From positions 3,782,001-3,846,000 of the forward strand of contig NZ_CP103289.1 in the NCBI RefSeq assembly GCF_024757985.1: a DNA stretch of 64,000 bases, given 5' to 3'. A program made the translations under genes and the position numbers. This document shows positions 17,160 through 46,424 of the stretch, piece by piece; position 1 is the stretch's first letter, and the number at the start of each line of letters is the position of its first letter. The notes below the pieces were generated by a model that had not been told where the DNA came from, searched no databases, and worked only from the letters and a program-made list of their open reading frames with translations. The DNA is from Cellulomonas sp. NS3. GTDB taxonomy: Bacteria; Actinomycetota; Actinomycetes; Actinomycetales; Cellulomonadaceae.

Positions 17160-18926
17160 TCAGCGCACGGCCACCGCAGGCCCGGCCGCGGGCGTCCCGC
17201 TCCTGAGGTAGGCCGGCCAGCTCGCGTGCACGGTGATGTCGTCGCCGGCGGCGGCGGCGTCGAGGGCGCACCCGAAGCCGACGACCCACGTGCCGTCGTC
17301 GAGCTCGACGGGTCCGAGGAGCATCGGTGCGGGGAGCGTCGCGAGGAGGCGACCGAGGCCGGCGACGGACACGAGCCACGCCTCGCCGGTGATCGACGCA
17401 CCCTCCCCCGGTCCGGCGCGCACGAGCCCGGGCTTCGGGGGGTGCGTCGCGAGCGCCGCCAGCCGGTAGGCGTCGGACGTCGCGACGGTGCGGACGAAGC
17501 GCGCGCCGAGCGCGTCGAGCTGACCGTTGAGCGGCTGGCCGCGTAGGTGCGCGCCGAACACCGCGACCTCGACGCCGGTGTCGACGAGCGGCGCGACCGG
17601 TGCGGGCTCGTCGTCCGCCGCGCCGCCCTGGACGATGAGCATGCGCCCGGCGAGGTCGAGCGCGAGCTGGTCGTCGAAGGCACGGGAGAGCACGGTGACC
17701 CCGAACGGTCCGCCGTCGGCCTCGCCCGCGGGGACCGCCACCGCGGCCAGGTCCAGGAGGTTGACGAAGTTCGTGTACGTGCCGAGGCGACGGTTGATGG
17801 CTACGGGGTCGGCCTGCACCGCGGCGATCGTGGGGTGCTCGGTCGTCGTGGGCAGGAGCAGCAGGTCGGCGCCGGCGAGCGTGCCGAGCGCGTCGGCGCG
17901 CGCCCGGTCGAGGGCCTCCCGGTCCTGCACGTACGCGGCGGCGGTCACGTCACGCCCGCCGAGCACGATGCCCGCGACCACCGGGTCGACGCCCGCGTCG
18001 CCGGCCGCGTGCGCGTGCGCGAGGAACTCGCCGACGGCGGCGTACCGCTCGGCGACGATCGCGCCGTCGTACAGCAGCCGCGCGGCCTCGAGCATGGGCG
18101 AGACGTCGACCTCCACGACCCGCGCGCCGGTGCGCCCGACGGCATCCACCGCGTCCGCGAACGCCGCGCGCCAGCCCGGCGACAGCGGTGCGAGGTCGGC
18201 CGCGCGCGGGACCGCCACCACGGGGTCGGGCCGCAGCCCGAGCCGGACGTCGGGTGGCCACACGCGGCCGGTGGGGTCGGCGGCGTCGGGCCCGGTCATG
18301 AGGCGCGTGGCGAGCACACCCAGGTCGAGGTCGCGCGTGAACGTGGTCACGACGTCGTAGGACCGGCACGCGGGCACCACGCCGGAGGTCGGCACGAGCC
18401 CGAGCGTCGTCTTGATCCCGACGATCCCGTGGAACGCCGCGGGCACCCGCCCCGAGCCGGCCGTGTCCGTGCCGATGCCGACGTCCGCGATGCCGAGCGC
18501 GACGGCGACCGCCGACCCGGAGCTCGACCCGCCCGACACCCGCTCGGGCAGCGTCGCGTGCCGGACCGCGCCGTACGGCGAGCGGGTCCCGACCAGCCCG
18601 GTCGCGAACTGGTCGAGGTTCGTCTTGCCCAGCACGACGGCGCCCGCGTCGACGAGCCGCTGGACGGCCGGCGCGGTGCGCGTCGCGGGCATGACGCCGT
18701 AGGTCGGGCAGCCCGCGGTCGTCGGGAGGCCCGCGACGTCGACGTTGTCCTTGACCGCGAGGGTCGTCCCGGCGAGCGGGAGGTCCTCGCCCGCGGCGGC
18801 CCGGGCGTCGACGTCGGCCGCTGCCGCGAGCGCCTGGGTCTCGGGCTGCAGCGCGATCCACACCTCGGGCCGGTCGACCTCCGCGATCCGGCGGTACGCC
18901 GCACGGACCCGCTCGACGGCGCTCAT
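17160..18926 (-). CDS. atzF: Allophanate hydrolase
   Basis: Second step of ATP-dependent urea breakdown: allophanate plus water to ammonia and CO2. The 588-residue protein has an amidase-signature domain with Lys59 (LAVKDNVD), Ser134 (SGGSSSGS) and Ser158 (GTDTAGSGR) as the Ser-cisSer-Lys triad, then the small C-terminal AtzF domain from about residue 470. Length is typical of bacterial allophanate hydrolases. Its start overlaps the urea carboxylase stop by 4 bases, so the two enzymes are made together. The 95 bases between it and fdhD hold no clear terminator. Confidence 0.96.
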   Translation of the reverse strand: MSAVERVRAAYRRIAEVDRPEVWIALQPETQALAAAADVDARAAAGEDLPLAGTTLAVKDNVDVAGLPTTAGCPTYGVMPATRTAPAVQRLVDAGAVVLGKTNLDQFATGLVGTRSPYGAVRHATLPERVSGGSSSGSAVAVALGIADVGIGTDTAGSGRVPAAFHGIVGIKTTLGLVPTSGVVPACRSYDVVTTFTRDLDLGVLATRLMTGPDAADPTGRVWPPDVRLGLRPDPVVAVPRAADLAPLSPGWRAAFADAVDAVGRTGARVVEVDVSPMLEAARLLYDGAIVAERYAAVGEFLAHAHAAGDAGVDPVVAGIVLGGRDVTAAAYVQDREALDRARADALGTLAGADLLLLPTTTEHPTIAAVQADPVAINRRLGTYTNFVNLLDLAAVAVPAGEADGGPFGVTVLSRAFDDQLALDLAGRMLIVQGGAADDEPAPVAPLVDTGVEVAVFGAHLRGQPLNGQLDALGARFVRTVATSDAYRLAALATHPPKPGLVRAGPGEGASITGEAWLVSVAGLGRLLATLPAPMLLGPVELDDGTWVVGFGCALDAAAAGDDITVHASWPAYLRSGTPAAGPAVAVR

Positions 18927-21900
18927 GCCCCCACCTCCACGACGACGAGCGGCGCCCCCGGCGCCACGTGCTGACCCGGTTCGACGAGCACCTGCCGGAC
19001 GCGTCCGTCCGCCGGGGCGTCGACCGCGAGCTCGAGCTTCATGGCCTCGAGCGCGACGAGCGGGTCGCCCGCGCGGACCTGCTCGCCCTCACGCACCTCG
19101 ACGCGCCACACGCTCCCCACCATGGGCGCCTCGACGAGCACGCAGCTCGCCGGGACCTCGAACCCGGGGCCGCCTGCCGCCCCGCCCGGTGCGTGCGCCC
19201 CTCCGGCCTCGTCCGCGGGCTCCTCGACCGCGAACTCCCCCGCGGCCTCCCACGCGGCGCGCTCGGCGGCGAACGCCTCGGCCTGCCGGGACTGGAACGC
19301 GGCGATGGCGTCGTGCTCGGACGCCAGCATCGCGAGGTGCTCGGCGTAGGAGAACGTGCCGTGCTCGACCTCGACGTCCAGGCGCCCGGCGGCGAACGCG
19401 GCGCGCTGCTCGACCAGCTCCTCCGCGCTCACCGGGTGCCACACGATGCGGTCGAAGAACCGCAGCAGCCACGGGGTGCCCGGCTCGAAGACCCCGCGCT
19501 GGCGGTGGCCGGACCAGATCGGCACGGTCCGCCCGACCAGCTGGTAGCCGCCCGGGGAGTCCATGCCGTAGACGCACAGGTACGTGCCGCCGAGCCCGAC
19601 GGTGTCCGCCGCGGTCCACGTGCGCGCCGGGTTGTACTTGGTGGTCATGAGCCGGTGCCGCGGGTCGAGCGGCACGGCGAGCGGCGCCCCGAGGTACACG
19701 TCGCCGAGCCCGAGCACGAGGTACTCCGCGTCGAACATCGTCCGGTGCACGTCGTCCGTGGAGTCGAGCCCGTTGACGCGGCGGATGAACTCGATGTTCG
19801 AGGGCAGCCACGGTGCCTCGGCGCGGACCCCCGCGGCGTAGCGGGACGTGGCCTCGGCGATGCAGGGGTCGTCGAAGGACATCGGGAGGTGGATGCGCCG
19901 GCTGGGGACGACGAGGTCCGCCGTGGGCGGCAGCGTCGCCTCGAGCTCGGCCAGCACGGCGACGAGCGCGCGCACGCCGAGCACGTCCGGGTCGACGTGC
20001 ACGTGCAGGCTCCGCACGCCGGGCGTGAGGTCGACCACCCCGGCCAGGCCGGCGTCGATGCGCGCCCGGAGCGCCTCGCCGAGCGCGTGCACGCGCAGCC
20101 GCAGCCCGAGGTCGAGCGTCATGGGGCCGTACTCGACGAGCACGTTGTCGTCGGCTCCGCGCAGGTAGACGACCTCGGGTCGGGCCAGCGGGTCGGGCGG
20201 GTCGCCGGGGATGCGGTGCAGCACGCCGTCGTCGCCGTCGGGCCCGGTCGCCCCGCCCACCCGGTCGAGCCCGCGCAGCGCGTCGGACCCCCGCAGCGCG
20301 TCCGCGGTCGCCTCGGGCACGGGGACGAGCCGCACGGTGTCGCCGGGGCGGATCTGGCCCATCTTCCAGCGGTGCCCCGCGACGACGGTGACCGGGCACG
20401 CGAAGCCGCCGAGGCTCGGCCCGTCGGGCCCGAGGAGGATCGGGGTGTCGCCGCTGACGTTGAGCGCACCGACCGAGTACGGGTTGTCGTGGAGGTTCGA
20501 CGGGTGCAGCCCGGCCTCGCCGCCGTCGGGTCGCGCCCACTGCGGCTTGGGCCCGGTGAGCCGGATGCCGGTGCGGTTCGCGTGCGTCTGCACCTGCCAC
20601 GTCGCGGCGTAGAGCATCGCCATGTCCTCGGGCGTGAAGTACGACGGTGCGGGCTGCGGGCCCTCCTGCACCGCGACGTGCCACTCGTGCACGAGCTCGG
20701 GCCGCAGGTCCTCGGCGACGGCCGCCGCGGCCGGCGCGTCGTCGGCCACGGCTGCCGGGACCAGCACGTCACCGACGACGAGCGCGCGCCCGGTGTACCC
20801 GCCGAACCCTCCGAGCGAGAACGTCGACGCCGACCCGAGGTAGAGCGGCACGTCCAGCCCGCCGCGCAGCAGCACGTGCGTGCGCAGGCCCGCGTCGTGC
20901 GGCGCCCCGACGTCGAGCACCGCGCCCGCCGGCACGGTCACCGGCTCCCACTGCGGGACGGGCTCGCCGTCGACCGTGACCGGCGCCGGGGCACCCGTCA
21001 CGCACACGACCGCCTCGTGGCTGAACCGCAGGCGCGGGCCGACGAGCGTGCACTCGAGCCCGGGCGCGCCCTCGGGGTTGCCGAGCGCGCGGTTGCCGAG
21101 CCGGAACGACAGGTCGTCCATCGGGCCCGACGGCGAGATGCCGACGTCCCAGTGCCCGAGCCGCCCGGGCCAGTCCTGCACCGTGGTCATGACCCCGCCG
21201 CGCAGCACCTCGACGTGCGGCTCGTCGTCCGTGACGCCCGCCAGCGTGGCGGTCGTGTGGGTGGCCGCCACGACCTCGGGGACGGCGACGGCGGCCCGCA
21301 GCAGCGGCAGGTTCGTCTGGACGCCCGTCACGCGGGTCCCGGCGAGCGCGTCGGTCGCCGCCGCGAGCGCCGAGGCCCGGTCGGCGCCGTGCACGACCAC
21401 CTTCGCGAGCATCGGGTCGTAGTGGGTCGTGACCTCCTGGCCGGTCTCGGCCCACGCGTCGACGCGCACGCCCTCGGGGTACCGGACGTCGGTGAGCAGC
21501 CCGGCGCTGGGCCGGTAGTCGTGCCGCGGGTCCTCGGCGTACACGCGCGCCTCGACGGCGTGCCCGCGCAGCCCCGGGCCGGTCACGGGCAGCGCCGCGA
21601 GCTCGTCGCTGAAGTCGGGGTCGCCCTGGGCGAGCCGCAGCATCCACGCGACGAGGTCGACGCCGGTGACCTCCTCGGTCACGGGGTGCTCGACCTGCAG
21701 GCGCGTGTTGACCTCGAGGAACGACACCTCGCCGCGGTCGACGTCGTGCACGTACTCGACGGTGCCGGCCGAGCGGTATGCGACCGACGCGGTGAGGGCG
21801 CGCGCCGAGGTCTGCATGCGCTCGCGCACGTCGTCGGGCAGGTTCGGGGCCGGGGCCTCCTCGAGCACCTTCTGGTTCCGGCGCTGGAGCGAGCAGTCGC

Positions 21901-22576
21901 GGTCGCCGAGGCTCACGACGCGTCCGTCGCCGTCGCCGAAGACCTGGACCTCGAGGTGCCGGGCCCGCGCGACGAACCGTTCGAGGAAGACCCCGGCGCT
22001 GCCGAAGTTCGCCGCCGCGATGCGCTGCACCTTCTCGTACGCGCCCGCGAGCTCGGTCGCGTCGGCGCACGCCTGCATGCCGATCCCGCCGCCGCCGCCC
22101 ACGGCCTTGAGCATCACGGGGTACCCGACGGCGTCGGCCGCGGCGAGCGCGTCGGGGAGGGACTCGAGCAGCCCGCTGCCGGGCACGAGCGGGACCCCGG
22201 CCGCCTCGGCCGCGACGCGCGCCCGGTGCTTGTCGCCGAAGACGTGCAGGTGCGCGGGGGTCGGGCCGACGAACGCGAGCCCGGCGGCCTCGACCTCGGC
22301 GGCGAAGACCTCGTTCTCGGAGAGGAACCCGTACCCGGGGTGGATCGCGCCGGCGCCGGTCGTCATAGCGGCGTCGAGCACGAGCTCGGAGCGGAGGTAG
22401 CTCTCCGCGGCGGGGGCGGGCCCGAGGCGCACGGCGACGTCGGCCATCCGGACGTGGGGCGCCGCAGCGTCGGCGTCGGAGTGGACGGCGACGGTCTTCA
22501 GCCCGAGGCCCTTCGCGGTCCGCAGGATGCGGCAGGCGATCTCGCCTCGGTTGGCGACGAGCAACGTCTCGAACAC
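18923..22576 (-). CDS. uca: Urea carboxylase (biotin-dependent)
   Basis: Carboxylates urea to allophanate using ATP and bicarbonate. Domains in order: biotin carboxylase (about 1-450; LLVANRGEIACRIL, GGGGGIGM, EVNTRLQVEHPVTE), the KipA/AHS2 and KipI/AHS1 carboxyltransferase halves (about 460-1000), a urea-carboxylase-specific region with TTKYNPARTW, and a C-terminal biotinyl domain with biotin Lys in EAMKLE. GTG at 22576 is chosen because GGGAG lies just ahead and the protein then begins MFETLLVANRG as relatives do; GTG at 22588 would add four residues. Related guanidine carboxylases exist, but no DUF1989 partner is present and a urea-type ABC transporter is adjacent, favouring urea. Confidence 0.95.
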   Translation of the reverse strand: MFETLLVANRGEIACRILRTAKGLGLKTVAVHSDADAAAPHVRMADVAVRLGPAPAAESYLRSELVLDAAMTTGAGAIHPGYGFLSENEVFAAEVEAAGLAFVGPTPAHLHVFGDKHRARVAAEAAGVPLVPGSGLLESLPDALAAADAVGYPVMLKAVGGGGGIGMQACADATELAGAYEKVQRIAAANFGSAGVFLERFVARARHLEVQVFGDGDGRVVSLGDRDCSLQRRNQKVLEEAPAPNLPDDVRERMQTSARALTASVAYRSAGTVEYVHDVDRGEVSFLEVNTRLQVEHPVTEEVTGVDLVAWMLRLAQGDPDFSDELAALPVTGPGLRGHAVEARVYAEDPRHDYRPSAGLLTDVRYPEGVRVDAWAETGQEVTTHYDPMLAKVVVHGADRASALAAATDALAGTRVTGVQTNLPLLRAAVAVPEVVAATHTTATLAGVTDDEPHVEVLRGGVMTTVQDWPGRLGHWDVGISPSGPMDDLSFRLGNRALGNPEGAPGLECTLVGPRLRFSHEAVVCVTGAPAPVTVDGEPVPQWEPVTVPAGAVLDVGAPHDAGLRTHVLLRGGLDVPLYLGSASTFSLGGFGGYTGRALVVGDVLVPAAVADDAPAAAAVAEDLRPELVHEWHVAVQEGPQPAPSYFTPEDMAMLYAATWQVQTHANRTGIRLTGPKPQWARPDGGEAGLHPSNLHDNPYSVGALNVSGDTPILLGPDGPSLGGFACPVTVVAGHRWKMGQIRPGDTVRLVPVPEATADALRGSDALRGLDRVGGATGPDGDDGVLHRIPGDPPDPLARPEVVYLRGADDNVLVEYGPMTLDLGLRLRVHALGEALRARIDAGLAGVVDLTPGVRSLHVHVDPDVLGVRALVAVLAELEATLPPTADLVVPSRRIHLPMSFDDPCIAEATSRYAAGVRAEAPWLPSNIEFIRRVNGLDSTDDVHRTMFDAEYLVLGLGDVYLGAPLAVPLDPRHRLMTTKYNPARTWTAADTVGLGGTYLCVYGMDSPGGYQLVGRTVPIWSGHRQRGVFEPGTPWLLRFFDRIVWHPVSAEELVEQRAAFAAGRLDVEVEHGTFSYAEHLAMLASEHDAIAAFQSRQAEAFAAERAAWEAAGEFAVEEPADEAGGAHAPGGAAGGPGFEVPASCVLVEAPMVGSVWRVEVREGEQVRAGDPLVALEAMKLELAVDAPADGRVRQVLVEPGQHVAPGAPLVVVEVGA

Positions 22577-22681
22577 GGGGGCTCCCACGGCGTGAGGGGC
22601 GGCGGTCGGACGGCGGGCCGCCGCTCCGCCGCCGAGCCGTCCGGCCCGGGTCGTCGTGGCGCTCCACCGCCGGATGCGGAG

Positions 22682-22763
22682 GTGTATACACGTCCGTATC
22701 CGCCCTCGAACCGTAGGGAGTCGGTGTTTCCCGCAGCGGGTGCGGGCGTAAACGCTGAGTTAC
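22682..22763 (-). promoter_or_regulatory. uca-atzF promoter: GlnR-like box, -10 and GntR-type palindrome
   Basis: Reading on the minus strand: a GTAAC-N6-TTTAC box (22748-22763, AC-N9-AC spacing as in GlnR sites), GAAACACC (22723-22730), a -10 TACGGT (22710-22715) and a perfect 10-bp palindrome GTGTATACAC (22682-22691) just after the expected transcript start. The same order and near-equal spacing recur before urtA. Leader length to the start codon is about 125 bases. Confidence 0.65.
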
Positions 22764-22810
22764 GCGAGCGGCCCGGGTCGGTGCCGGCCGGCGCGGGCGG
22801 GCGACGCGCG

Positions 22811-23527
22811 TCAGCCCGCGAGCGCCATCCGCGTCATCGCGCTCGTCGCCCGCTCCATGACGACCTCGAGCGACTCCCCCACGTGCTTGTGCAGCGCGGT
22901 CAGCGCCGCCGCGAGGTCGCGCGCGAGCACGAGGTCGAGGATCTCGATGTGCTCGTCGATCGTCGTGACGATGCGCCCGGTCTCGACGAAGTCGTGCATG
23001 CGGACCGCGCGGATCTTCTGGTTGACGGTCACGAGCGCGTCGGTGAGCTGCGCGTTGCCCGAGGAGCGGGACAGCGCGAGGTGGAAGCCCTCGTCGAGCA
23101 GCACGAACGCCGGGTCCGGCTCGGGCGGGGTGTCGCGGAGCTCCTGCCAGCGGGTCAGCTCGGCCCGGACCTGGTCCTCGTCGTGGCGCACGCCCGGGTT
23201 CTCGATGGCACGGGCGATGCCGCGCAGCTCGAGCGTGATGCGCAGCTCGTACAGGTTGCGCAGGTCCTCGAGGCTCGGGACGACGACCGCGTAGCCGTAG
23301 TCGGTGCGCTCGACGAGCCCGTCGGACAGCAGCCGGGACAGCGCCTCGCGGACCGGCGTGCGCGAGACCTCGAACGCCTTGCCGAGCTTGGGCTCCGTGA
23401 GGCGCTCGCGCGGGGACACACGGCCGTTGAGGATGTCGTCGCGCAGGCGCTCGTAGACGACGTCGCGCAGCGACCGTGACGTGCCCGCCGACCCCGGCGC
23501 GGTGCCCGCGTCCACCTCAGCGCTCAT
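22811..23527 (-). CDS. GntR-family transcriptional regulator, FCD (FadR) subfamily
   Basis: A 238-residue regulator: N-terminal winged HTH (LRDVVYERLRDDIL, SRTPVREALSRL) and an all-helical FCD ligand domain with the metal-site His pattern (FHLALSRSSGN, HEIL, KHVGESL). Placed between the urea transporter and urea carboxylase genes, it is the natural local regulator; the TGTATACA palindromes at both promoters fit the GntR/FCD operator type. ATG at 23527 is chosen because TACGCT lies 8 bases ahead (leaderless); GTG at 23533 with GGAGGG upstream is the alternative. Confidence 0.92.
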   Translation of the reverse strand: MSAEVDAGTAPGSAGTSRSLRDVVYERLRDDILNGRVSPRERLTEPKLGKAFEVSRTPVREALSRLLSDGLVERTDYGYAVVVPSLEDLRNLYELRITLELRGIARAIENPGVRHDEDQVRAELTRWQELRDTPPEPDPAFVLLDEGFHLALSRSSGNAQLTDALVTVNQKIRAVRMHDFVETGRIVTTIDEHIEILDLVLARDLAAALTALHKHVGESLEVVMERATSAMTRMALAG

Positions 23528-23642
23528 ACCCACGGAGCGTATCCCTCCGGCTGCGGCCGCCGGCGCGGGCCGGGCCGGCCCTCCGCCCGGAGCCCGGGCC
23601 TCGGGCGCGGCCGGACCGTCCGCCGCACCCCGGCGCGCGCCG

Positions 23643-24338
23643 TCAGAGGGCCATCGCGGCACGGACCTGCGCCTCGTGCTCGACCCCGCCCGCGCCCGAC
23701 GCGACGACCCGCCCGGACTCGAGCACCGCGTAGTGCGACGCCGCCCCGAGCGCGAACCCGACGTGCTGCTCGACGAGCAGCACCGCGAGCCCGCCCGCGG
23801 CGGTGAGCGCGAGGATCGCGTCCTCGATCTCCGCGACGACCGACGGCTGGATGCCCTCGGTCGGCTCGTCGAGCACGAGGACCCTCGGGCCGGTGATCAG
23901 CGCCCGGGCGATCGCGAGCTGCTGACGCTGACCGCCCGAGAGCAGCCCGGCGCGGCGCCCGAGCAGCCCGCGCAGCGCCGGGAACAGGTCCAGCGCCTCG
24001 TCGGTGCGCCGCGACCCCGCGGAGCCCTGCCCGTCGGCGACGAGCTGGAGGTTCTCCCGCGCGGTGAGCTGCCCGAAGGACTGCTGACCCTGCGGCACGT
24101 ACGCGAGCCCGCGCCGGACCCGCTCGTGCGGCCGCAGCCGGGTGATGTCCTCGCCCGCGAGCCGGACCGTCCCCGACCGGACCTTGAGCAGGCCGACCGC
24201 CGCGCGCAGCAGCGTCGTCTTGCCCGCGCCGTTGTGGCCCATCACGGCGGCGATCGCGCCGTCCGGCACCCGCACGTCGACGCCGTGGACGACCGACGTG
24301 CGCCCGTACCCGACGTGCACGCCCTCGAGCTCGAGCAT
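23643..24338 (-). CDS. urtE: Urea ABC transporter ATP-binding subunit UrtE
   Basis: A 231-residue LivF-type ATPase with Walker A GHNGAGKTT, Q-loop PQGQQSFGQLT, signature LSGGQRQQLAIARAL and Walker B VLVLDEPTEGIQPS. EPTEGIQPS is characteristic of UrtE/LivF. It pairs with UrtD to drive urea import. The ATG overlaps the urtD stop by one base (TGATG). Last gene of urtABCDE; GntR follows in the same direction 115 bases on. Confidence 0.95.
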   Translation of the reverse strand: MLELEGVHVGYGRTSVVHGVDVRVPDGAIAAVMGHNGAGKTTLLRAAVGLLKVRSGTVRLAGEDITRLRPHERVRRGLAYVPQGQQSFGQLTARENLQLVADGQGSAGSRRTDEALDLFPALRGLLGRRAGLLSGGQRQQLAIARALITGPRVLVLDEPTEGIQPSVVAEIEDAILALTAAGGLAVLLVEQHVGFALGAASHYAVLESGRVVASGAGGVEHEAQVRAAMAL

Positions 24339-25159
24339 CACCGCTCCTTCCGTCCGCTGCCCAGGTACACCTCGACGACGCGCGGGTCCGCCTGAACCTG
24401 CGCGACCGTCCCCTCGCTCAGCACGCGGCCCTGGTGCAGCACCGTGACCGACGACGCGAACGAGCGCAGGAACTCCATGTCGTGCTCGACGACGACGACC
24501 GTGCGCTGCGCCCCGATCCGCTGCAGCAGGAGCCCGGTCTGCTCGCGCTCGGCGTGGCTCATCCCGGCGACGGGCTCGTCGAGCAGCAGCAGCCGGGAGT
24601 CCTGCACCAGGAGCATCCCGATCTCGAGCCACTGCTTCTGCCCGTGCGCGAGCACGCCCGCGGGCGCGTCCCGGAGCGCGGTCAGGCCGACGGTCTCGAG
24701 CGCCTGCTCGACGACCTCGGGCACAGCGGACCGGCGCCGCAGCAGCATCCGAGCCCGGCGCCGGGAGCCCCCCGCGATGTCGAGGTTCTGCAGCACGCTC
24801 AGCTCGTCGAACACGCTCGCGGTCTGGAACGTGCGCCCGACGCCGGCCCGGGCGACCCGGTGCGACGCCCTGCCGAGCAGCTCGACGCCGCCGAACCGCA
24901 CCGACCCGGTCGCCGGCGCCAGGCCGGTGATCGCGTCGACGATCGTGGTCTTGCCCGCGCCGTTGGGGCCGATGAGGAAGCGCAGGTCGCCCTGGGTGAC
25001 CGTGAGGTCGACCTCGTCGACGGCGACGAAGCCGTCGAACTCGACCCGCAGGCCGCGGACCTCGAGGTAGTCGTGCCGGAACCGGTCGTCGGGCCCGGCG
25101 AGCACCTGCTCGAGCGCGTCGGGGTCGAGCACCTGCTCCGGCTGGGGGTTGTCGGTCAT
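24338..25159 (-). CDS. urtD: Urea ABC transporter ATP-binding subunit UrtD
   Basis: A 273-residue LivG-type ATPase. Walker A GPNGAGKTT, VGRTFQTASVFDELSV Q-loop region, the modified signature LAHGQKQWLEIGMLL and Walker B LLLLDEPVAGMSHAE are the UrtD pattern; UrtD proteins carry HGQKQW in place of the usual LSGGQ. About 25 N-terminal residues precede the fold. The ATG at 25159 overlaps the urtC stop by 4 bases. Forms the second half of the ATPase dimer with UrtE. Confidence 0.95.
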   Translation of the reverse strand: MTDNPQPEQVLDPDALEQVLAGPDDRFRHDYLEVRGLRVEFDGFVAVDEVDLTVTQGDLRFLIGPNGAGKTTIVDAITGLAPATGSVRFGGVELLGRASHRVARAGVGRTFQTASVFDELSVLQNLDIAGGSRRRARMLLRRRSAVPEVVEQALETVGLTALRDAPAGVLAHGQKQWLEIGMLLVQDSRLLLLDEPVAGMSHAEREQTGLLLQRIGAQRTVVVVEHDMEFLRSFASSVTVLHQGRVLSEGTVAQVQADPRVVEVYLGSGRKER

Positions 25160-26337
25160 GGGGTGCTCCCGGACGTGACGGTCTCGGACGTCGTGGTGGG
25201 TGTCTGCGCCGCTCGCGCCGGGACCTCGTCGGGCACGTCGTCCCGCTCGGCCCGACCGCCGCGCCACCGCCGCCACACGCCCCCGAGCGACGCGAGGCCG
25301 CCCGGCAGGAACGCGACGACGAGGATGAACAGCGCGCCCTGGAAGTAGGTCCAGAACGACGGGAACTGCTCGGACAGCGAGGTCTGCGCCCACGAGACGG
25401 CGAGCGCCCCGAGCACCGGTCCGAGCAGCGTCGCGCGCCCGCCGATCGCGACCCCGACGAGGAACCCGATCGACGGCACGACGCCGACGTCGGCGGGCGA
25501 GATGATCCCCACGATCGGCACGAACAGCGCCCCCCCGATCCCGGCGAACGCCGCCGCGACCGCGTAGGCGACGACCTTGACGACCGCGGGGTCGTAGCCG
25601 AGGAACCGGACGCGGTTCTCCTGGTCGCGCACCGCGACGAGCAGCTCCCCGAAGCGCGAGCGCATGAGCAGGCGCACGACAGCGACCATCGCCAGCAGGG
25701 TCCCCGCGGCGATGAGGTAGAGCATCTCCTTGTTGACCGGGTCGGCGAGGTCGTACCCGAAGAACGACCGGAACCCGTTGAGCCCGTTCGTGCCGCCGGT
25801 GACCTTCTGCTGCCCGACGAGCAGGATCGCGAACGCCGCCGCGAGGGCCTGCGACAGGATCGCGAAGTACGCCCCGCGCACCCGCCGCGTGAACACCGCG
25901 AAGCCCAGCGCCGAGGCCAGCGCGACCGGGACGAGCACGATCGCGACGACCGTGACGACCGGGCTGCGGAACGGCTCCCACCAGCCCGGCACGGTCCCGT
26001 CGCCGTAGAGCAGCATGAAGTCGGGCACCCCGCCCGGCCCGGCGTCGGCGAGCTTGAGGTGCATCGCCATGAGGTAGCCACCGAGGCCGAAGTACACGCC
26101 CTGGCCCAGCGTCAGCATCCCGCCACGGCCCCACGCGAGCCCGATGCCGACCGCGACCATCGCGAGGCAGCAGAACTTCGCGAGCAGCCCGAGCCGGAAA
26201 TCCGAGAGCAGCGCGGGCGCGACGCCGAACAGCGCGACGGCGGCGACGGCGAACCCGGCGAGCGTGCGGACGCGCTCCCCGGTCAGCAGCCGGCCTGCGG
26301 TGCCACGGTGGCGCTCCGCGGTCCCCGCCGGGCTCAC
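25156..26337 (-). CDS. urtC: Urea ABC transporter permease UrtC
   Basis: A 393-residue LivM-type permease with about ten hydrophobic helices; conserved AWGRGGMLTLGQGVYFGLGGY near residue 70 and FAVFTRRVRGAYFAILSQAL and TGGTNGLNGF motifs are typical of UrtC. The last 40 residues are a charged cytoplasmic tail. The start is GTG at 26337, overlapping the urtB stop by 4 bases (GTGA); the longer open frame upstream runs over urtB and is rejected. With UrtB it forms the membrane channel. Confidence 0.94.
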   Translation of the reverse strand: MSPAGTAERHRGTAGRLLTGERVRTLAGFAVAAVALFGVAPALLSDFRLGLLAKFCCLAMVAVGIGLAWGRGGMLTLGQGVYFGLGGYLMAMHLKLADAGPGGVPDFMLLYGDGTVPGWWEPFRSPVVTVVAIVLVPVALASALGFAVFTRRVRGAYFAILSQALAAAFAILLVGQQKVTGGTNGLNGFRSFFGYDLADPVNKEMLYLIAAGTLLAMVAVVRLLMRSRFGELLVAVRDQENRVRFLGYDPAVVKVVAYAVAAAFAGIGGALFVPIVGIISPADVGVVPSIGFLVGVAIGGRATLLGPVLGALAVSWAQTSLSEQFPSFWTYFQGALFILVVAFLPGGLASLGGVWRRWRGGRAERDDVPDEVPARAAQTPTTTSETVTSGSTP

Positions 26338-27218
26338 GCGAGGCTCCGCGTGCGCAGCGACACGAGCCCCTGCGGCCGCACCTGGAGGAACGCGACGATG
26401 ACGACGAACAGCAGCACCTTGGCGATGCTCGCGGTCGTCGAGTACTCGAACGTCGCCTGCAGCAGCCCGAGCGAGAACGCCGCGATCACGGTGCCCTTGA
26501 GCTGCCCGATGCCGCCGGCCACGACGACGAGGAACGCGTCGACGATGTAGCTCGTGCCGAGCGTCGGGCCGATCGACCCGAGCAGCGTGAGCGCGACGCC
26601 CGCGACCCCGGCGATCCCCGAGCCGACGAAGAACGTGAGCCGGTCGGTCGCGCGCGTCGAGATGCCCGAGGTCTCCGCCAGGTCGCGGTTCTGCACGGTC
26701 GCGCGGATCCGGCGACCGAGCGGCGTGAGCTTGAGGACGAGGGCGAGCGAAGTGACGCACACGACCGCGACGAGCAGGATGAACAGCCGCGTCTTCGGCA
26801 CCCCGAGCCCGAACAGCTCGACCGCCCCGGAGAGCCACGCCGGCGCCCGGACGTCGACGTTCGGTGCGCCGAAGACGTCCCGCGCCGCCTGCTGGAGCAC
26901 GAGCGCGACGCCCCACGTGACGAGGAGGGTGTCGAGCGGCCGCCGGTACATCCGCGAGACGAGCGTGACCTCGAGCACGAGCCCGAGCAGGCCGCCGACG
27001 AGGAAGCCGACGACGAGCGAGACGAGCAGCGAGACCCCGGCGTCGGCGATCACGCCCTGCACGACGTACGCCGTGTAGGCGCCCGCCATCATGAACTCCC
27101 CGTGCGCCATGTTGATGACGCCCATCTGACCGAACGTGAGCGCGAGCCCGAGCGCCGCCAGCAGCAGCACCGACCCGAGGCTCAGCCCGGCGAAGAGCTG
27201 CGAGAACAGGGCATCCAT
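26334..27218 (-). CDS. urtB: Urea ABC transporter permease UrtB
   Basis: A 294-residue LivH-type permease: eight or so membrane helices, GLALTFGQMGVINMAHGEF-type motif at residues 26-45, TLLVTWGVALVLQQ and the coupling segment TVQNRDLAETSGI that contacts the ATPases. Shorter than UrtB proteins that carry an extra N-terminal periplasmic region, as usual in actinobacteria. It is 129 bases downstream of urtA, with a very strong hairpin between, and is then tightly packed with urtC, urtD and urtE. Confidence 0.95.
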   Translation of the reverse strand: MDALFSQLFAGLSLGSVLLLAALGLALTFGQMGVINMAHGEFMMAGAYTAYVVQGVIADAGVSLLVSLVVGFLVGGLLGLVLEVTLVSRMYRRPLDTLLVTWGVALVLQQAARDVFGAPNVDVRAPAWLSGAVELFGLGVPKTRLFILLVAVVCVTSLALVLKLTPLGRRIRATVQNRDLAETSGISTRATDRLTFFVGSGIAGVAGVALTLLGSIGPTLGTSYIVDAFLVVVAGGIGQLKGTVIAAFSLGLLQATFEYSTTASIAKVLLFVVIVAFLQVRPQGLVSLRTRSLA

Positions 27219-27347: not shown

Positions 27348-28619
27348 TCAGGACAGGCCCTCGGCCCAGTCGTAGCCCTCGAGGAACGGGTCGGGCTCGA
27401 TCGCCTCGTCCGAGCTCCACTCGGTGTAGATGAGGCCGTCGGCGCCGATCTTGCCGATGAGCGCCGTCTTCGCGATGTGGTGGTTCTCGCCGTTCACGGT
27501 CACGGTGCCCTCCGGCGCCTCGAACGAGACCCCGTCGGCCGCGTCCTGCACCGCCGCGACGTCGAACGACTCGGCCTTCTCGACCATGCCCTTCCACAGG
27601 TACAGCGACGTGTACGCGGCCTCCATCGGGTCGGACGTCACGCGGTCCTCGCCGTACTTCGCCTTGAACGCCTCGACGAACGTGGTGTTCGCGGGGCTCT
27701 CGACCGTCTGGTAGTAGTTCCAGGCGGTGAGCTGGCCCTCGATGTTCTCGACGCCGATGCCGCCGACCTCCTCCTCGGCGATCGACACCGAGACGACCGG
27801 GGTGGTGTCGACCCCGAGGCCGACGTTCTTGTACTCCTTGAAGAACGCCACGTTCGAGTCGCCGTTGAGCGTGTTGAACACGGCGTCGGCGCCCGAGGCC
27901 TTGAGCTTGTTGACGATCGTCGAGAAGTCGGTGTGCCCGAGCGGTGCGTACTCCTCACCGACGATCTCGATGCCGTTCGCCTCGGCGTAGGCGTTGATGA
28001 TCTTGTTCGCCGTCCGCGGGAAGACGTAGTCGGAGCCGACGAGGAAGACCTTCGTCTTGCCCTGCTCCTTGAGGTAGTCCATGCCGGGGACGATCTGCTG
28101 GTTCGTCGTCGCGCCCGTGTAGAAGATGTTGGGCGACGCCTCGAGGCCCTCGTACTGCACCGGGTAGAACAGCAGAGCGTCCTTGCTCTCGAACACCGGG
28201 AGCATCGCCTTGCGGGACGACGAGGTCCAGCCGCCGAACACCGCGGCGACGCAGTCGGACGAGATGAGCTTCTCGGCCTTCTCCGCGAACACGGTCGGCT
28301 CGGAGGCGCCGTCCTCGCCGACGACCTCGAGCTGCTTGCCGAGCACGCCGCCGTCCGCGTTGATCTCCTCGGCGGCGAGGTCGAGCGCGTCGCGGACCGT
28401 CTGCTCCGAGATCGCCATGGTCCCGGACAGCGAGTTGAGGAAGCCGATCTTCACGGAGTCGCCCGAGGTGTCGACGCACGAGGTGGCGGCTCCGCCGGAC
28501 GAGGTGCTGCCGCCGGAGGACCCGGCGTCGGTGCGCGCTCCGCCGCAGCCCGTGAGGCCGAGGGCGACGGCGAGGGCCGCCACGGGCAGAGCGAGTGCGC
28601 GCGTGCGTGATGTGGTCAA
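27348..28619 (-). CDS. urtA: Urea ABC transporter substrate-binding lipoprotein UrtA
   Basis: A 423-residue extracellular binding protein. A lipoprotein signal ends in GLTGC (Cys25), followed by a Ser/Gly linker and a Peripla_BP_5/LivJ-type fold: [54 protein letters not shown] and [15 protein letters not shown] are the UrtA-specific stretches ([10 protein letters not shown]). The TTG at 28619 is chosen because it gives a normal short signal peptide and follows AAAGG; upstream frame extends into the promoter. First gene of the urtABCDE operon. Captures urea outside the cell and presents it to UrtBC. Confidence 0.95.
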
Positions 28620-28704
28620 CGGGGTGCCTTTCGCAGCGGGTCGCGGGAGTGGGGACTCCCCTGGTCCGGGCTCCGGATCGCGCGACACCGCGCTGTGTCC
28701 CGCG

Positions 28705-28789
28705 GTGTATACATCCCTGTGCCCATGACCGAGGACGCTAGGGACCGGGTGTTTCCACGACGCACGCGCGGCGGTGAACGGTGTGTTTC
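28705..28789 (-). promoter_or_regulatory. urtA promoter: GlnR-like box, -10 and GntR-type palindrome
   Basis: On the minus strand: GAAAC-N6-TTCAC (28774-28789), GAAACACC (28748-28755), -10 TAGCGT (28735-28740), and GTGTATACAT (28705-28714) just downstream of the expected start. Order, wording and spacing match the uca promoter. With the groL terminator below, this accounts for most of the 303-base gene-free stretch 28620-28922. Confidence 0.65.
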
Positions 28790-28922: not shown

Positions 28923-30690
<1,768 letters not shown>

Positions 30691-46349: not shown

Positions 46350-46409
46350 GTGTCAGCGGCGACACTTCTGGCACCTTTCACTACGGATCGTCCGGCACGT
46401 ACCTGCCGG
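46350..46409 (+). promoter_or_regulatory. Promoter, possible operator and leader hairpin of the MsmK-type ATPase gene
   Basis: GCGACA (46359-46364), 17-base spacer, TACGGA (46382-46387). An inverted repeat GTGTC-N6-GACAC (46350-46365) overlaps the -35. A 6-bp hairpin (46392-46397/46404-46409) lies at the 5' end of the transcript, before GAAGGGA and the ATG. The rest of 46183-46349 shows nothing recognisable. Confidence 0.5.
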
Positions 46410-46424
46410 TGAAGGGAACACATC

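Follow-up and report, generated by a model that had tools for sequence, protein, structure and literature searches.

A local FCD-type GntR protein as probable repressor of urea uptake and urea carboxylase genes in Cellulomonas sp. NS3, with predicted operators of hexamers at 12-bp spacing

Introduction

On the minus strand of a 64,000-nucleotide stretch of the Cellulomonas sp. NS3 genome (hereafter the window), genes for urea uptake and genes for urea breakdown lie on the two sides of a gene for a GntR-type regulator, and a similar short palindrome is found in front of both groups. In an earlier note on this DNA, it was proposed that the regulator represses both groups jointly and that a metabolite of the pathway lifts the repression. 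The question raised by this locus is whether the regulator and the palindromes belong together and, if so, what kind of switch they may form. Here, the locus is compared with the rest of its own genome, with the genomes of its family, and with a class-wide sample.

Results

The urea gene cluster and its probable regulator

As read along the minus strand, the order is urtA, urtB, three further transporter frames, gntR, uca, and atzF.

27348..28619, minus strand: urtA, binding protein of the urea ABC transporter (TIGR03407 above cut-off; putative TTG start)
26334..27218, minus strand: urtB, urea ABC permease (TIGR03409 above cut-off)
25156..26916, minus strand: presumed urtC, frame with the second permease (BPD_transp_2; start not refined)
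24338..26134, minus strand: presumed urtD, frame with an ATPase (ABC_tran, BCA_ABC_TP_C; start not refined)
23643..26081, minus strand: presumed urtE, frame with an ATPase (ABC_tran; start not refined)
22811..23527, minus strand: gntR, FCD-type GntR regulator of 238 aa (P0001; Pfam PF00392 and PF07729 above cut-off)
18923..22576, minus strand: uca, urea carboxylase (TIGR02712 above cut-off; putative GTG start at 22576)
17160..18926, minus strand: atzF, allophanate hydrolase (TIGR02713 above cut-off)

The gene between the two units had been read in the earlier note as that of an FCD-type GntR regulator, and both domains are found by Pfam. The protein combines a GntR winged helix with an FCD domain, which places it in the FadR/FCD subfamily of the GntR superfamily. 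The metal-ligand residue pattern of FCD domains (Asp/Asn, His, His, His), as described in PMC7797058, is present as D145, H149, H193, and H215, and these residues are invariant in 14 aligned sequences. NCBIfam gives the regulator no specific name, with a best match of 77 bits against a cut-off of 271.5.

No match to the urease alpha-subunit was found in the genome, and the single match to the allophanate hydrolase C-domain is that of the window. Therefore, uca-atzF is the visible urea route of this genome. A second urea-carboxylase-like gene (L192, genome position 2645145) shares 70% identity with uca across the first 600 residues, carries no operator, and possibly serves another substrate. 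On the far side of the cluster, a cpn60 (GroEL) gene at 28923-30677 ends about 180 bases upstream of the -10 hexamer of urtA on the same strand. Elsewhere in the window, an msiK RNA motif lies at 46366-46424 on the plus strand, well above the Rfam gathering score.

Two rare palindromes at the urea promoters

The palindromes and the putative -10 hexamers upstream of them are as follows.

22682-22691, minus strand: uca-side core, GTGTATACAC (sequence match; the 10-mer of the earlier note)
28705-28714, minus strand: urtA-side core, GTGTATACAT on the plus strand and ATGTATACAC on the coding strand
22710..22715, minus strand: putative -10 hexamer of uca, TACGGT (alignment only)
28735..28740, minus strand: putative -10 hexamer of urtA, TAGCGT (alignment only)

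Both palindromes were found at the positions given for them in the earlier note. Its distance of 20-22 bases from the -10 boxes holds for the GTATAC core (20 at uca and 22 at urtA); as counted from the -10 hexamer to the start of the 10-mer, the distance is 18 bases at uca and 20 at urtA. The 8-mer TGTATACA has two copies in the window, compared with 0 in 100 dinucleotide shuffles. A scan of the whole genome (4,776,279 bases), which the earlier note had proposed, was run and located TGTATACA at 5 places, one just downstream of each urea promoter. The hexamer GTATAC is found at 14 places in the genome, and its only copies in the window are the two urea sites. With all 14 copies mapped, none lies before the gntR of the window, as had been noticed earlier from the letters alone, and this gntR is thus without an operator of its own.

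Among the other three genomic copies of TGTATACA, one (L007) is flanked by a permease gene and a MarR-like gene, and two are at the locus L006. In the latter (L006:4391-4533; genome positions 3254390-3254532), two TTGTATACAAG sites stand 135 bases apart between divergent genes for an MR/MLE enzyme and an FCD-GntR protein, and they are read from their sequence as a second, separate TGTATACA regulon.

Conservation within the family

The family survey covered 221 genomes, 81 of which have a GntR match at E<=1e-50. The 58 genomes at >=62% identity were taken as orthologues, the remaining matches being at <=57%; 57 orthologue loci were compared together with the window as the 58th, and three loci of lower identity were used as outgroups. 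A urtA match at the cut-off is present in 55 of the 58 orthologue loci (L050 and L059 have no urtA since their contigs end, and L071 and L105-L107 were left out of the urtA and uca counts). GTATAC is found within 260 bases before urtA in 55 of these 55 gntR-bearing loci, compared with 1 of 20 urtA loci from genomes without the gntR orthologue (Fisher p 7e-17, with relatedness ignored). The 20 control loci span several genera and come from genomes without a listed GntR match, or with only a distant paralogue (G207), and their stretches contain no gntR match. The sole core-bearing control (L157) belongs to a genome about 75% complete. Another control, G122, shares its genus with species that bear gntR, and its genome is 83% complete.

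The earlier note had named in advance what would speak against the proposal, namely close relatives with the gene cluster but without the palindrome. When this comparison was made, the hexamer proved to be kept at all 55 urtA loci; the full TGTATACA, however, is present in only 23 of them, and the other 8-mers at this place are TGTATACG (16 loci), CGTATACA (12), CGTATACG (3), and TGTATACC (1). In the 55 loci as a whole (645,954 bases), GTATAC has 97 copies, and 92 of these stand no more than 260 bases ahead of urtA or uca. Of the remaining five, three are in front of a uca or atzF gene outside this range (L076, L079, L084). Five site-less control promoters (L149, L150, L154-L156) retain, as judged by eye, a GAAAC box and a -10-like hexamer; therefore, the promoter seems to stay when the palindrome is gone.

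Before uca, the core is present in 40 of 49 gntR-bearing genomes, that is, within 150 bases in 31 of the 39 gntR-bearing loci with the uca start in view, and in 9 of ten further genomes in which uca is farther off. The misses are eight from one genus (g5) and L190. These eight have a uca-like gene with 59-65% identity and gave no match to the allophanate hydrolase C-domain; in G121 of the same genus, uca is at 76%, and both the C-domain and the site are present. Where inserted genes separate gntR from uca, the site has stayed with uca (L061, L063, L064), and in two gntR-bearing genomes a site is found before atzF (L071, L076). Sixteen uca loci served as controls, some of them paralogues in gntR-bearing genomes and the others from genomes that do not have this gntR. 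In the 400 bases preceding the gene, none of the 16 has TGTATACA with up to two mismatches; many of these may have no promoter there, and in many the preceding stretch resembles the end of another gene. Overall, the switches are kept almost only where the regulator gene is kept, so that a small conserved circuit of urea control is very probably what these alignments reflect.

At least 28 gntR-bearing genomes also have urease. In four of the urease-bearing genomes (G109, G117, G119, G125), gntR and the site are found beside urt, and searches for uca (at E<=1e-150) and for the allophanate hydrolase C-domain gave no match. Nine gntR-bearing loci have an additional pair, GTRTSC-n6-GTATAC, at 202-373 bases before urtA. 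In six of the nine (G037, G045, G060, G087, G105, G107), the urease alpha gene is divergent and close to urtA; in G096 it is divergent and about 5 kb from urtA, and G072 and G076 have no urease match. The regulon may extend to urease in the loci with a divergent urease alpha gene, as their sequences suggest.

A different inverted repeat, approximately TTAGGTTCATnTGAACCTAA, precedes the urtA start in 14 of the 20 gntR-less promoters (L138-L148, L151-L153), and is perhaps the mark of a swapped control circuit. In four of the loci whose frames were read (L138, L141, L148, and L152), these run on into a urease alpha-like gene, and the urease search also places urease there.

Occurrence beyond the family

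Sites before urtA or uca are also found in Cellulomonas uda, C. phragmiteti, and Cellulomonas sp. B6, loci that probably duplicate three genomes of the family set and are not independent evidence. In three Nocardia loci, where GntR is 44-47% identical, TGTATACA lies before urtA. Paired sites with a spacing of 12 or 24 bases precede atzF in two Mycolicibacterium loci, which have one at gntR as well. The class-wide sample comprised 394 genomes; counting the own genome, a GntR match at E<=1e-45 was obtained in 42. Among 40 loci outside the family, GTATAC is found at -160 to +60 of the gntR start in 26, mostly as arrays, and is absent in 14; therefore, self-control of gntR looks common there. In 22 of the 40, uca or atzF is in the stretch, together with urtA in one case (L212), and in the other 18 none of urtA, uca, and atzF was found in the stretch (mostly about 1.5 kb each side).

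An array of hexamers at 12-bp spacing

The 10-mer, taken as the site in the earlier note, is rightly placed but forms only the centre of a larger array with hexamers at 12-bp spacing.

22672..22701, minus strand: predicted uca operator, GGATAC-n6-GTATAC-n6-GCATCC (30-bp palindrome, 13 of 15 pairs)
28695..28724, minus strand: predicted urtA operator, GGGCAC-n6-GTATAC-n6-GGACAC

The predicted uca operator of the window reads GGATACGGACGTGTATACACCTCCGCATCC. A hexamer at +12 or -12 was counted as a partner if it matched at 5 of 6 positions or more, in either orientation. On this measure, 2 of the 14 genomic GTATAC copies have partners on both sides, and these are exactly the urea sites; the copy at L339 has a partner on one side only. 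A wide TGTATACA regulon in the own genome was ruled out on this ground.

At the uca loci of relatives, GGATAC lies exactly 12 bases upstream of GTATAC in 30 of 31 and GAATAC in the remaining one, a count that leaves out nine uca loci picked by the GGATAC-n6-GTATAC pattern. At the urtA loci, GGGCAC lies 12 bases upstream in 46 of 56 and GGACAC 12 bases downstream in 40 of 56. Each set was then thinned to <75% identity, and offsets were counted for a GKAYRC consensus that had been picked after the flanks were viewed, so that the comparison is controlled by offset and is not blind; the richest offset for GKAYRC-like hexamers is -12 in the uca, urtA, and distant gntR groups alike. It is found in 19 of 19 thinned uca loci (followed by -37, no multiple of 12, in 7 of 19), in 14 of 16 urtA loci (+12 in 11 and -24 in 8 of 16), and in 12 of 14 distant gntR loci (+12 in 7, +24 in 7, and +36 in 5 of 14). 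The median over the offsets tested is 0.

Promoters, GlnR-like boxes, and a proposed mechanism

Further promoter elements of the window are listed below.

22726..22763, minus strand: GlnR-like boxes GTAAC-n6-TTTAC and GAAAC, upstream of the uca -10
28751..28789, minus strand: GlnR-like boxes GAAAC-n6-TTCAC and GAAAC, upstream of the urtA -10
23536..23541, minus strand: possible own -10 of gntR, TACGCT (tentative)

Under the GlnR box definition given in PMC3662644 and PMC10704036, the AC-n9-AC box of a GlnR target promoter is found upstream at both uca and urtA. A simple promoter and terminator scan of 22550-23800 found nothing. A hexamer similar to TACGCT stands just before the gntR start in about 10 of 14 aligned rows, as counted by eye, and its position would tentatively imply a leaderless gntR message. 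Elsewhere in the genome, sequences like the urea promoters, with two mismatches, are found at L010 and L011 (positions 1440771 and 1465674); one L010 copy precedes a major-facilitator transporter gene, of the nitrate/nitrite type by eye. From their sequence, these are possible GlnR targets.

In relatives, the distance from the -10 to the core at urtA (n=55) is 22 bases in 41 loci and 20 in 1, with 13 lacking a match to the -10 pattern; at uca (n=31) it is 15 bases in 21, 16 in 1, 20 in 2, and 21 in 3, with 4 unmatched. If transcription starts about 7 bases after the -10, the arrays span about +2 to +5 through about +31 to +34. Since the arrays lie downstream of the putative -10 boxes, we infer repression; the operon structure, the inducer, and the role of GlnR are proposals of the same kind.

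In the proposed mechanism, the FCD-GntR protein would bind two operators, those of uca-atzF and urtABCDE, each with three related hexamers and GTATAC as the central one. When bound at an array that reaches from about the transcription start into the leader, it would block initiation or escape, and both operons would be held down by GntR when urea is absent. When urea is present, a molecule of the pathway, possibly allophanate made by Uca, would release GntR by occupying the FCD metal site, and urea uptake and breakdown would rise together. The GlnR-like boxes upstream of both promoters would add control by nitrogen limitation. As gntR lies downstream of the urt genes and may also have a weak leaderless promoter, the GntR level may rise with the urt operon and so damp it.

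Allophanate is favoured because uca or atzF is near gntR in those 22 of the 40 distant loci, of which 21 have stretches with no urtA match, and because proteins of the FadR subfamily are described as binding ligands such as carboxylic acids. Since gntR persists in genomes without uca and the hydrolase domain, allophanate would not be the sole ligand there.

Discussion

The sequence comparisons support a link between this GntR protein and the two sites. With good confidence, the local FCD-GntR protein may be regarded as a urea-pathway-specific repressor of uca-atzF and urtABCDE that is lifted by a pathway molecule and overlaid by GlnR.

The sites themselves could be chance palindromes or elements of a leader RNA that have nothing to do with GntR: they lie inside the putative 5' leaders, and base composition alone would give about three TGTATACA copies per genome by a rough estimate. 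However, conservation, co-occurrence, and array spacing oppose chance, which was ruled out by the 55/55 versus 1/20 co-occurrence with gntR, and a perfect 8-bp palindrome has no loop to fold on. At gathering thresholds, Rfam finds only a tRNA and the msiK RNA in the window, with no leader match and no guanidine or other riboswitch, and a known leader RNA was therefore ruled out; overall, this reading is scarcely credible. It is also very improbable that another FCD regulator of the same genome binds the urea promoters while the local GntR does something else. The obvious candidate is the FCD-GntR protein encoded at L006 beside the MR/MLE enzyme gene, which is 25% identical to the GntR of the window, retains the VSRTPVR stretch, and has two TTGTATACAAG sites between its own gene and the divergent one. 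Yet no hexamer with at least 5 of 6 matches lies at +12 or -12 of the L006 sites and their outer bases differ, whereas the urea sites track the local gntR gene across genera; control by the L006 protein was ruled out since the partner hexamers are absent there.

If the local GntR is the protein that binds, it could still activate, or both activate and repress, as is suggested by CitO, an FCD regulator described as binding DNA and inducing in the presence of citrate (PMC4746285). This is unlikely, since both arrays, if the -10 boxes are right, are in the position of a repressor, and the position of an activator is already taken by the GlnR-like boxes. The choice of inducer is a closer matter, and there is a considerable possibility, somewhat short of even, that the same circuit responds to urea or another nitrogen compound instead of allophanate. 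Such an inducer would agree with the persistence of gntR and the site beside urt in G109, G117, G119, and G125, the urease-bearing genomes without a uca match or hydrolase C-domain, and with the three Nocardia loci, in which neither uca nor atzF is nearby. On the other hand, uca or atzF accompanies gntR in 22 of the 40 distant loci, and only L212 of these also has urtA.

If the repressor reading of the local GntR is true, a specific regulator of urea uptake and urea carboxylase is named for a group of actinobacteria, together with an operator open to testing, a candidate for the inducer, and perhaps a component for biosensors. Where regulators of such genes are named in the literature met, they are the global GlnR and AmtR (PMC4222082, PMC3662644). 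The system would also serve as a clean example of FCD operators phased at 12 bp. As a more tentative suggestion, an actinobacteria-wide FCD-GntR family might sense a metabolite of the urea carboxylase pathway, possibly allophanate, and bind a phased array of at least three GKAYRC hexamers at strict 12-bp spacing, each hexamer probably representing one neighbour-contacting dimer. If so, the operators would work cooperatively in an architecture shared neither by single FCD palindromes nor by the NanR repeats, and the regulator would possibly be the first allophanate sensor. Searches of the open-access PMC literature met with no report of a 12-bp array.

Comparison with known systems

Local repressors of the FCD-GntR type are a familiar kind of system. 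In Mycobacterium smegmatis, GlnR is described as controlling the urea uptake genes and urea amidolyase (PMC3662644), and the AmtR-linked operons of several actinobacteria include a putative urea carboxylase gene (PMC4222082). GlnR and AmtR, however, are global nitrogen regulators, and explain neither the GTATAC arrays nor the link to gntR. A GntR gene lies between uca-atzF and the urtABCDE-urease genes in Ectopseudomonas guguanensis G3 (PMC13296017), and nitrifier contigs with biuret and allophanate genes carry a gntR (PMC12625717); both appear in these sources as annotation, with no operator or test in the passages concerned. Searches of the open-access PMC literature met with no experimental or operator-level report of a GntR regulator for urea carboxylase, allophanate hydrolase, or urt.

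Among characterized GntR proteins, PxpR of Corynebacterium glutamicum is alike as a pathway-specific repressor of an actinobacterial operon for a nitrogen compound, with a site downstream of a putative -10 and a leaderless regulator gene, but it is described with a 17-bp inverted repeat of other sequence and with 5-oxoproline as effector (PMC13274462). NanR of Escherichia coli, also an FCD protein, has three repeats per operator, to which three dimers bind cooperatively, and, like the repressor proposed here, acts on uptake and breakdown of one nutrient (PMC8012715). In the same account, its repeat is GGTATA, its cooperativity depends on a 32-residue N-terminal extension, and its effector is sialic acid; the repeats of the window are not three GGTATA repeats but GTATAC and variants 12 bp apart.

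A similar core is known for Atu1419 of Agrobacterium fabrum, a related FCD protein of the VanR group for which binding to ATGTATACAT is described from gel shift and a crystal structure (PMC7797058). At the positions aligned with its DNA-contacting Glu34, Arg45, Thr46, and Arg49, the GntR of the window has the same residues, and the window system shares both the TGTATACA core and the helix contacts Glu, Arg, Thr, and Arg; the wing glycine aligns one position off. Unlike the proposed urea regulator, Atu1419 is described as controlling hydroxycinnamate degradation, with methylenetetrahydrofolate as the proposed effector, and its palindromes are 109-190 bp apart and bridgeable by a tetramer, whereas the predicted operators of the window are 12-bp arrays (PMC7797058). 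Finally, additional boxes are described for 23 orthologous groups of the GntR family, weaker than the main site and 7-12 nt from its centre on one or both sides (PMC4494728), and some of these groups have 2 nt between GT and AC, as in the sites of the window. The words 'urea' and 'allophan' are absent from the main text of that study. Its boxes are presented as half-sites of unknown role, whereas the hexamers found here are whole and spaced at 12 bp, with further ones at 24 and 36 bp in some sets.
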